64,000 nt of DNA from assembly GCA_022180725.1 (NCBI GenBank), contig BQMO01000002.1:1-64000 (forward strand), given 5' to 3'. Positions 1 through 19,026 of the stretch are shown here, piece by piece (within the stretch, counting starts at the first letter, position 1; every line of letters begins with the position of its first letter). The notes beneath the pieces were generated by a model that did not search any database, was not told where the DNA came from, and saw only the letters and a list, made by a program, of their open reading frames with translations. This stretch comes from Phycisphaerae bacterium (GTDB lineage: Bacteria; Planctomycetota; Phycisphaerae; Phycisphaerales; UBA1924). The translations under genes and the position numbers were made by a program.

Positions 1-95
1 GGGGGGATGTTGAGACTGAAGCACGTGGTGTGTTGTCAATCAATCGGCGGCGACCGAGATCTACACTCTTTCCCTACACGACGCTCTTCCGATCT
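1..95. other. Illumina adapter / artefactual contig end
   Basis: Positions 53-95 match the 3' 43 bases of the Illumina universal sequencing adapter, ending in CTCTTCCGATCT. Positions 1-52 are unlike the flanking genome (low GC, begins with a G run) and include a garbled version of the upstream adapter part. This is library-derived sequence joined to the contig. Genomic sequence appears to begin around position 96. Confidence 0.95.
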
Positions 96-244
96 CCCTT
101 CAGCAGGACCAGGAACCCGGGCGCCCCCAACATGTCCAACGCAGCACCCCTCGCCCGCTCCCGTGCAAATCAAGCGGTTGCTCGCGCCTGACCGATCCAT
201 ACCCCAACCGCTTCCGAATGCGTACCCTCTCTCGGAGCATCCCC

Positions 245-1705
245 ATGCCGTCCCGGAACTACATCCCCGTGCTCATCGCCAGCGCATCCCTTGCGCTGAC
301 CGCGTTTTCATTCGCCCAGGTACCCTCCACGCCCCCCTCGCTTCCGCCAGATGCCCAAGGCACGGTCGAGTTCGAGCAGGAGCCGTTCCGGCTCGACGCG
401 GTCGGGCTGACGCTCTTCCTGCCCCTGGGCAGCACCGCCGAGGCCGGCACCATGCCCGGCAAAACCACCGTCCGCGTCAAACCCGCCGACAACGCCTGGA
501 TCGCCAACATCCAGAACCCGCGCACGAGCAATCAGGACCTGACGGCCTCGAAAGTGCTCGAGGACATGGTCACCCAACTCCTCAAGCAATCCGGCGAGGT
601 CTACGAGCGTGGCCGGCCCGATCGCCCCCTCGGGTACCGCGGCGTGGTCCTGTTGCCCTCGGAGACCCGCGTCATCGACGGACGTCCCGCCCAGCGCGCG
701 TACGTCAAACTCCCCGCCGAGGGCTCCAGCGCGGCGATTGTCCGCGGGTACTACGTCTTTCAACTCTCCCCGGCCCAGTTCGTCACCTTCGAACTCATCA
801 CCACCGAGCCGGCGCTGACCAACGCCCGGCGCGATTTCGAGGCGATGGTCAGCAGCGCCCGATTCGAGGACCCCGCCAAGGCCAACGCCGACCGCTCGAC
901 CGCGATCCAGACCGGGCAGAAAATCCTCCAGCGCATCTCCGAGACGACGATGCGAGAGATCGTCGAGGCCGCCCCGGAGCGCTGGGAGCGACTCTTCCGC
1001 CCCAGCCCTACCGGCGCCAAGAAAGACGACGAAGAAATCGGCTACCGGCGCGTCCGCGCGAGCATCGGCCGCCGGGGCGACCTTGACCCGACGCGCAAGA
1101 ACCCCGGCCCGGGCGACCGTCAACCCGGCTACGTCGTGCGCCTCGACGCACGGTACCTCGACAAGTCCGGCGGCGTGGCCCGCACCATCGACTCCCAAGC
1201 CATTTACTTCTTGACCTTTGACCGTGAATCCGAGGCCTGGAACGTCCGCAACGCCATCCGCGCCGGCACGACCACCGACGTCGTCAGCGAGATCGGCGCC
1301 CGGCAGGGTGCTTCGATGACGGTGGAAATTACCCCCGCCAAAGGCGCCGGCCGCACCGTGCGCCCGCTGATCCAGGGTGACGGCTACATCAGCCGCGTCG
1401 AGTCCATGCTCCTCCCGCAGATCATGATGCGCGCCGGCATCACCGCCGAGGCCGGGTTCTACGCCTACCAGTCCGAGTCTGAAACCATCCGCCTCCGTCG
1501 TGACATCCTCGAGCAGCCGATCGACCGTCCCGGCATGTGGCGGCTTATCACGCGCTTCAGCGAAACACAACCCCCCCAGACCAGCGTCTACAACGCCGCG
1601 TTCGATCTCATCCGCTCCGAACTCCCCCGCGGGGTGGTGGCCGAGCCGATCACCCTCGAGGAACTGGGCGCGCTCTGGCGGGCCAAGGGCCTCCCGATGA
1701 AGTAA
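245..1705 (+). CDS. secreted protein of unknown function
   Basis: The protein is 486 aa with a clear N-terminal signal peptide: a short basic start, a hydrophobic stretch (IPVLIASASLALTAFSFA) and a likely cleavage before Gln-Val-Pro. I chose the ATG at 245 because it places the basic residues directly before the hydrophobic core; an upstream in-frame ATG at 218 is possible. A TACCCT hexamer at 223-228 would give a short leader. The mature part has no motif I recognise and no further membrane segment, so it is probably periplasmic or exported. The gap to ruvB is 42 nt, so cotranscription is possible. Confidence 0.75.
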   Translation: MPSRNYIPVLIASASLALTAFSFAQVPSTPPSLPPDAQGTVEFEQEPFRLDAVGLTLFLPLGSTAEAGTMPGKTTVRVKPADNAWIANIQNPRTSNQDLTASKVLEDMVTQLLKQSGEVYERGRPDRPLGYRGVVLLPSETRVIDGRPAQRAYVKLPAEGSSAAIVRGYYVFQLSPAQFVTFELITTEPALTNARRDFEAMVSSARFEDPAKANADRSTAIQTGQKILQRISETTMREIVEAAPERWERLFRPSPTGAKKDDEEIGYRRVRASIGRRGDLDPTRKNPGPGDRQPGYVVRLDARYLDKSGGVARTIDSQAIYFLTFDRESEAWNVRNAIRAGTTTDVVSEIGARQGASMTVEITPAKGAGRTVRPLIQGDGYISRVESMLLPQIMMRAGITAEAGFYAYQSESETIRLRRDILEQPIDRPGMWRLITRFSETQPPQTSVYNAAFDLIRSELPRGVVAEPITLEELGALWRAKGLPMK

Positions 1706-15816: not shown

Positions 15817-16203
15817 ATGACACGCGACGAGATCTTCACGAAGGTACAAACAATCCTGGTCGACGCGCTGGCCGTCGACGAGGACGAGGTCAAGCCCGAG
15901 TCGAGCCTGACCAAGGACCTCGGGGCCGAGTCCATCGATTTCCTCGACATCGTGTTCAAACTCGAGCAGGCCTTCGGGATCAAGATCCCCCAGGGCGAAC
16001 TCTTCCCCGAGAACGTCGCGAGCAACCCCGAGTACGTGCAGGACGGCAAGGTGACGCCGGCGGGCATCGCGATGCTCAAAGCCCGCATGCCGCACATGAC
16101 CCTGGGCGCCTGGGAGCAGGACCCGCAGGTGATGAAGGTGCAGGAACTCTTCACGGTCGGCACGCTCGTGCGGTTCGTCGAGGCGAAACTGGCCGCCAAG
16201 TAG
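15817..16203 (+). CDS. acyl carrier protein (long form)
   Basis: The N-terminal 80 residues form an acyl carrier protein domain. The phosphopantetheine Ser is Ser39 in GAESIDFLDIVF, where the usual DSL is replaced by ESI. The 128 aa protein is about 50 residues longer than a standard ACP. The extra C-terminal part (from about residue 85, MLKARMPHMTLGAWEQD onward) may wrap the core or bind a partner. The start is the ATG at 15817. It sits between two FabZ-like dehydratases, its likely partners. Confidence 0.88.
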   Translation: MTRDEIFTKVQTILVDALAVDEDEVKPESSLTKDLGAESIDFLDIVFKLEQAFGIKIPQGELFPENVASNPEYVQDGKVTPAGIAMLKARMPHMTLGAWEQDPQVMKVQELFTVGTLVRFVEAKLAAK

Positions 16204-16218
16204 GCGGGGAGCCGACGC

Positions 16219-16725
16219 ATGCGCTGGCTGTGGATCGACCGCATCGTTGAACTGGTTCCCGGGCAGCGTCTGGTGGCGATCAAGAACCTCTCGCTGGCCG
16301 AGGAGTACTTTCACGACCACTTCCCTGCCTCGGGCGAGATGCCCGCGACGCCGATCATGCCGGCGTGCTTCATCCTCGAGGGCATGGCGCAGACCGCGGG
16401 CATCCTCGTCGGGCACGCCGAGGGGTTCCGCGAGAAGGTCGCGCTCGCCAAGATCTCCAAAGCCGAACTCTCCGCCGACGCCGTGCCCGGCCAGACACTC
16501 CGGTACACCGCGACCTTGCAGAACCTGGACGCCCTTGGCGCGTCCACCGCGGGCGTGGTTGAACTCTTCGACCCCACCCGCCCGGGCGAGGCGACCACGA
16601 TCGGCCAGATCGACCTCATGTTCTCGCACCTCGACCACAACATGGCCGGGCTGGATTTCCCCGCGCACAACTTCGTCTTCGGCGAATCGTTCAAGACCGT
16701 GCTCCGCATGAGCGGCGTCGGCTGA
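16219..16725 (+). CDS. FabZ-like hydroxyacyl-ACP dehydratase, copy 2
   Basis: This 168 aa hot-dog protein has DHFPASGEMPATPIMPACF followed by ILEGMAQTAG, so the catalytic His and Glu are kept. The His-to-Pro-Gly loop is longer than in copy 1, and the C-terminal 45 residues (LDHNMAGLDFPAHNFVFGE) are extra. The differences suggest another substrate or a heterodimer with copy 1. It starts 15 nt after the ACP stop codon. Confidence 0.84.
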   Translation: MRWLWIDRIVELVPGQRLVAIKNLSLAEEYFHDHFPASGEMPATPIMPACFILEGMAQTAGILVGHAEGFREKVALAKISKAELSADAVPGQTLRYTATLQNLDALGASTAGVVELFDPTRPGEATTIGQIDLMFSHLDHNMAGLDFPAHNFVFGESFKTVLRMSGVG

Positions 16726-16746
16726 TGAATGGTCCTGCGCGCGCGG

Positions 16747-16752
16747 TAGGAT
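16747..16752 (+). promoter_or_regulatory. -10-like TAGGAT before membrane-TPR gene
   Basis: TAGGAT ends 6 nt before the ATG at 16759. Confidence 0.45.
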
Positions 16753-16758
16753 GTTCCC

Positions 16759-19026
16759 ATGCGATCGGTTCGTGCGTGGCATGTCTCGCTTGTTGGGCTG
16801 CTCCTGCTCCTGCTCGCCGTCGGCGTGCAGAAGGTCTGGTCCATCGACTTCTGGTGGCAGATCCGCAACGGCGAATGGATCGTCGAGCACGGCAAGGTCC
16901 CGACGCGCGAGATGTACTCGTGGTCGGCCGCGGGAAATCCGCTTCGCGAGATGCGTTGGCTCTACTGCACGGCCGTCTATCTCCTCTTCGCCCGGGTCGG
17001 CGAGTGGGCGCCGTCGCTGCTGCAAGCCGCGCTCGTGAGCGCGGCGTGGCTCGCCCTCGCCTGGCCCTTCCGCCGTGACCTGCGACACCCCATGGTGATC
17101 GCCCTGCTCGCCCTCGGTCTCTGCGCCGGCCTCGCCCGCTGGGTGATGCGCCCCGAACTCGCCACCTACCTCTCCTTCGCGCTCTTCCTCACGTTCCTCG
17201 CCCGCCTGCGAGAAACCGGCGGCTGGCGATGCATCCTCGCGCTCTTCGTCACGCAGGTCTTCTGGGTCAACACGCACACGCTCTTTCTGTTCGGGCCCAT
17301 CCTCGCGTGGTGCTTCTTCGCGGGCGACGCCGTGCAGCGCCGGATCGACCGCATGCGCGGCGGGCCGCCCTCGCCACTGATCAACACTCGCCTTGCGATC
17401 ACCGGCGTGGCCGTCACCGCGGCCTGCTGGATCAACCCGTACTTCCACGACGGCGCGATGTACGCGGTGCAGATGTACCGCGAGACGCGGGCGGGGCACG
17501 CGACGAACCAGATCATCGGGGAGATGCGCAGCCCGCTCGCCATCCCACACGCCGACTGGACATGGGACCTCTTCGCCTGCGTCATCCTCGCGCTCACCTC
17601 CACCTTCATCGTCGCCCGCGCGTGGCGGCGGCTTGATGTGGTCACCGGCGGCATCCTCCTCCTGGGCCTCATCCTCTTCGCCCAGTTGCAGCGGAACACG
17701 CCGCTGCTGGCGTTGTGCGCGGTGTGGGCGGCGTTGCGGACGATCCACACCGCGCCGCGCGGGTCTGGGGAGGTCGGCGCCCGCCGCGCGTGGGTGGCGC
17801 ATGGTGCGGTGGCGGCGTGGTGCGTGCTGGCGGCGTGGTTCATCGCGGCGGACCGCGTGGGGGCGAAACTGAACCAGCCGCGCGAGCGCGGGCTGGGCGT
17901 GGTACGGGGCATCGTGCCCGAGGGCGGGGCGGGGTTCCTGCGCGAACATCCGCCGACGGGACGGCTGTTCAACGTGGTGCGAGACGGGGCGTACCTGATC
18001 TGGGCGGCGCGGGGGGTGCCGGTGTTCATCGACGGGCGGACCGACGCCTACGGGCCGGCGTTGCTGACCATCGCGGCGTCGATGTCGCCGGCGAACTGGG
18101 ACGCGTGGTCGGCGGAACAGGGCGTGACGGCGGCGATGCTGCCGACGCTGGGGTTCTCGCCGCTGGTGGCGCACCTGGCCGGGTCGTTGGAGTGGGCGCT
18201 GGTGTTCGTGGATCATCGGAGCGTGGTGTTCTTTCGGCGGACGGCGGCGCAGGCGGGAGTGATCGAGCGTGCGTCGGGGCGCGTGGAGGCGGCGATCGGC
18301 GGGGCGGGTCGAGTGATGGAGGATCCGATCGAAGGATGGAAGCGGCTGATTGGCGCGAGGCCGCGCGCGTGGCGGGCGGAGGGGTGGGCGCAGGTGCTGG
18401 TGGACCTGGGGCGCCATGCGGAGGCGCGGGCGGCGATGGAGGCGGGGTTGGCGGTCGAGCCGGGGAACGAGCGGTTGCGTGTGCTGCTGGCGCCGGTGGT
18501 GTACGTGGAGGGTCGCGCGTCGGAGGCGTCGCGGCTGCTGGAGGGGCTGGACGGCGAGTTGCGGTTGACGGCGTATCGGGAGGCGGCGCGGGCGGCGATG
18601 ACGGCGGGGAGGGCGCGTGAGGCGGAGGGAGCGCTGATGGAGGCGTTGGCGATGTCGCCGACGGGTGTGACGAGCCGCGATCTTCGCGTGGCGCTGGGGG
18701 ACATTCGCTTTCAGACCGGGCGGGCGGCGGAGGCGGCGGCGGAGTATGAGTTGGCGCAGCGTGAGTTGCCGACCGTGAACGAGTGGAACAAGCTGGCGAC
18801 GATTTATCTTGGGCTGAAGGATGCGGGACGGGCCGAGCGGGCGTTGCGGGCGTCGCTGGCGATGGATGGGGACACGCCCGCGCAGGCGGGGGTGTGGGCG
18901 ATGCTGGGCGGGGTGCTGGCGCAGCGCGGGGATGTGGGGAGTGCGCGGGCGTGTTATGAGCGGGCGCTGGCGCTCAACCCGAGTCACGCCGGGGCGCGGG
19001 AAGGGCTTGAGCGGCTGAAGCGGTAG
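16759..19026 (+). CDS. polytopic membrane protein with C-terminal TPR repeats
   Basis: The 755 aa protein starts with a membrane anchor (VSLLVGLLLLLLAVGV-like stretch; exact residues 9-23) and has about ten hydrophobic segments to residue 380. A soluble loop follows, containing FIDGRTDAYG. From about residue 540 to the end it has helical repeats of TPR type (for example RVALGDIRFQTGRAAEAAAE and AMLGGVLAQRGDVGSARACY). The topology resembles glycosyltransferase-like or O-antigen-ligase-like membrane proteins fused to TPRs, but no catalytic motif is certain. Base use changes inside the gene: the first third is C-rich, the rest strongly G-rich. The end overlaps a convergent gene by 53 bp. Confidence 0.82.
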   Translation: MRSVRAWHVSLVGLLLLLLAVGVQKVWSIDFWWQIRNGEWIVEHGKVPTREMYSWSAAGNPLREMRWLYCTAVYLLFARVGEWAPSLLQAALVSAAWLALAWPFRRDLRHPMVIALLALGLCAGLARWVMRPELATYLSFALFLTFLARLRETGGWRCILALFVTQVFWVNTHTLFLFGPILAWCFFAGDAVQRRIDRMRGGPPSPLINTRLAITGVAVTAACWINPYFHDGAMYAVQMYRETRAGHATNQIIGEMRSPLAIPHADWTWDLFACVILALTSTFIVARAWRRLDVVTGGILLLGLILFAQLQRNTPLLALCAVWAALRTIHTAPRGSGEVGARRAWVAHGAVAAWCVLAAWFIAADRVGAKLNQPRERGLGVVRGIVPEGGAGFLREHPPTGRLFNVVRDGAYLIWAARGVPVFIDGRTDAYGPALLTIAASMSPANWDAWSAEQGVTAAMLPTLGFSPLVAHLAGSLEWALVFVDHRSVVFFRRTAAQAGVIERASGRVEAAIGGAGRVMEDPIEGWKRLIGARPRAWRAEGWAQVLVDLGRHAEARAAMEAGLAVEPGNERLRVLLAPVVYVEGRASEASRLLEGLDGELRLTAYREAARAAMTAGRAREAEGALMEALAMSPTGVTSRDLRVALGDIRFQTGRAAEAAAEYELAQRELPTVNEWNKLATIYLGLKDAGRAERALRASLAMDGDTPAQAGVWAMLGGVLAQRGDVGSARACYERALALNPSHAGAREGLERLKR

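Follow-up and report, generated by a model that had tools for sequence, protein, structure and literature searches.

An untrimmed sequencing adapter at a Phycisphaerae contig end and the native neighbour of that end in the same assembly

Bases 1-95 of the Phycisphaerae DNA analysed here are a technical artefact, ordinary adapter contamination without biology. We regard it as close to certain that they are the adapter-bearing end of an untrimmed read, which became the tip of contig C2 in the assembly and probably kept this contig from its true neighbour, contig C21. The stretch that was analysed (the window) comprises 64,000 bases, G000:C2:1-64000, so that its base 1 is also base 1, an end, of contig C2, which is 182,476 bases long; the draft genome consists of 30 contigs with 3,538,919 bases (3.54 Mb). 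It was compared with 40 related genomes, 24 of the same family and 16 more distant ones of the same order. A preliminary description of this DNA had proposed adapter contamination, and this proposal is supported by exact identity to the oligo, two more adapter-bearing ends in the assembly, the lack of the oligo piece in relatives, its position at the ends of contigs from unrelated organisms, and the native sequence that C21 carries upstream.

The identity of the adapter was observed directly. The reference was the Illumina TruSeq universal adapter, an oligo of 58 bases. Window bases 53-95 are identical at 43 of 43 positions to the 3′ end of this oligo, as the preliminary description had stated for the same bases, and about 9e-20 exact 43-base matches would be expected by chance on both strands of a genome of 3,538,919 bases. 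The exact stretch given in that description is thus correct, and its left limit is not, as the adapter reaches base 38: in the same ungapped register, the full oligo matches 38-95 (plus strand) at 53 of 58 positions, with mismatches at 41, 43, 44, 50 and 52. The first 15 adapter bases, at 38-52, match at 10 of 15 positions, a score that in this register was equalled by 52 of 100,000 shuffled versions of bases 1-52 and by 50 of 63,885 15-mers from other parts of the window. This match is significant only when the exact one is extended without gaps in its register; a gapped local alignment between 1-52 and the same 15 adapter bases did not exceed shuffles, 864 of 2000 of which reached its score. 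The ligation end of the adapter faces the insert, with the oligo stopping at 95 and native sequence beginning at 96.

Since the adapter covers more than had first been described, the unexplained part shrinks to bases 1-37 (no strand assigned). That 1-52 are unlike the genome holds true, as a search of the own genome with 1-95 gave, beyond the window itself, no matches with E below 1 other than those at the two further adapter ends, and these do not extend left of base 29. The best matches of 1-52 in phages and plasmids had E values of about 1 and 3, as expected by chance, and an origin from either was rejected. Other Illumina oligos (P7, TruSeq read 2, and Nextera read 1 and read 2, both strands) were also rejected as a source of 1-52, as none of them beat shuffles. 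Tails in a similar position are present at the ends of contigs C23 and C6. We consider 1-37 to be likely noise, from base calls made once the read had passed the end of its template. This reading is likely rather than firm because C2 lacks the run of T found at C6 and in all 45 public tails considered below; there is a run of G at the outer end instead.

The true left neighbour was likewise observed directly. Window bases 96-339 (plus strand), the first native bases, have an identical 244-base counterpart at the end of C21 (C21:124256-124499), and the very last base of C21, which differs from window base 340, is the sole disagreement. The earlier advice to mask the first 95 bases was right, base 96 being the first one common to both contigs. 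Upstream of the overlap and on the opposite strand, C21 carries genes for ribosomal proteins S10 (PF00338, 1.7e-34) and L3 (PF00297, 9.9e-11). The first genuine gene of the window, at 218-1705 on the plus strand, adjoins the S10 and L3 genes in relatives: in 23 of the 24 same-family genomes, as judged by a comparison of rows by eye that covered this family, the S10 region and a relative of this gene lie close together on one contig in the same relative orientation. In the remaining genome, G001 (76% complete), the protein of the first gene has no match, and the S10 query matches weakly, over 26 bases only. Collectively, the overlap with C21 and the gene order conserved across this point indicate that 1-95 occupy the place of ordinary chromosome. 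The gene at 218-1705 encodes a protein of 495 amino acids without a Pfam match, which is present in 39 of the 41 genomes of the order, the own genome included.

The same pattern was observed directly at another contig end of this assembly. The 18-base core of the adapter is found at seven sites of the own genome when up to three mismatches are allowed, and is exact at three of them, on C2, C6 and C23, each near a contig end and with the ligation end towards the insert. At the native end of C6, bases C6:123730-123962 overlap C4:1-233 over 233 bases with 98% identity, and C4 carries on with ordinary sequence where C6 passes into an oligo with two mismatches and a one-base insertion, followed by about 71 bases that open with a run of T directly beside the oligo. 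The end of C23 (G000:C23:144424-144544) contains the complete oligo (58 of 58) and 63 further bases; no contig overlapping this end was found in the assembly.

An exact 28-base piece of the adapter was not found in the 40 related genomes. In scans of two public collections, a 33-base piece gave at least 245 matches in at least 240 loci from unrelated organisms. Among the matches listed, 240 of 245 are no more than 200 bases away from the outer end of their locus. Another three (L118, L174 and L237) point outwards, and two (L169 and L217) are more than 200 bases from either end. Bases outside the match number 25 or more in 74 of the matches listed, and the exact 58-base oligo is present in 52 of these 74. 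Where at least ten bases follow the full oligo, the nearest ten are nearly pure T in 45 of 45 among the matches listed. This run corresponds to poly-A in the direction of the read and in many cases is followed by disordered sequence, and we read such tails as the sequencer running off the end of its template. In L217, an IMG/VR contig, the 33-base match lies about 2.9 kb from the locus end, inside the viral contig, which suggests a chimeric join at that point. When 1-95 were searched against 5,426 complete E. coli genomes, one record was returned, with an exact 28-base adapter piece (NZ_CP123349.1:702311-702338); it falls within the annotated fliI gene and is perhaps an artefact of assembly or polishing.

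From these results we infer a route by which the contig end may have arisen. A short library insert, ending at the present base 96, would have been sequenced beyond its end, through the TruSeq universal adapter and then past the end of the template, giving bases 1-37 as noise. The untrimmed read end would have been built into the assembly as the tip of contig C2, and this tip may have blocked the merging of C2 with C21. Overlap, adapter and tail together exceed 300 bases in both joined cases (C21 with C2, and C6 with C4); if the reads were no longer than 300 bases, a single one would not account for the whole overlapping end. Two further points count against the full explanation, namely the lack of a T run in 1-37 and the lack of a partner for the end of C23.

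The first of these points is also what favours a different origin of the tail, in which the adapter is still an artefact and the DNA of 1-37 is genuine, coming from a different molecule and linked through the adapter in a library or assembly chimera: no T run stands beside the adapter, unlike in the 45 public tails among the matches listed. However, neither the own genome nor phages or plasmids gave a significant match to 1-37, and the adapter's first 15 bases agree with the oligo at only 10 positions, the degradation that a failing read end would give. We consider such a chimera improbable, and slightly more improbable still that 1-37 are a real fragment from an organism absent from the searched collections, joined through the adapter; the end would be an artefact in that case, too. 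The reading of 1-95 as native chromosome that resembles the adapter by chance has a negligible probability. No point in its support was found, the number of matches expected by chance is minute, and the order of genes is kept across this point in nearly all of the same-family genomes compared; the overlap with C21, which holds the native continuation, already refutes it.

These results matter for data hygiene only. Masking 1-95 removes open reading frames (ORFs) that translate the adapter, one of which spans bases 1-1086, and ORF calls that start within the first 95 bases should be discarded. Trimming three contig ends (C2, C23 and C6) cleans the assembly, and the two pairs that overlap end to end, C21 with C2 and C6 with C4, can then probably be joined. 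The first of these joins places the S10 and L3 genes beside the gene for the 495-residue protein, as in relatives. Two other observations were made in the window. At 16000-18000, a clearly negative GC skew gives way to a clearly positive one, a change of sign that is seen at replication origins or where the direction of genes switches. ARAGORN predicted a tRNA-Gly at 1841-1934 on the minus strand, inside the ruvB gene of the other strand; this call is probably false, as Rfam did not confirm it.

The presence of adapter at contig ends is an already published phenomenon. A text search of the literature for the translated adapter peptides matched one method paper on the yeast two-hybrid system, and further searches brought up ReSeq (PMC7896392), PMC8172020 and PMC10898089. 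According to Moeller et al. 2024 (PMC11536531), adapter sequence is concentrated at the contig ends of MGnify genomes, contigs merge once it is trimmed, and the screen was built on a 12-base core. Compared to the cases described there, the end of C2 is similar in its adapter core, its position at a contig end, the ligation end facing the insert, and the failure of contigs to merge. It differs from them in that almost the entire oligo and a further tail are retained, and in that, of all the ends in an assembly of 30 contigs, only 3 have the exact 18-base core.
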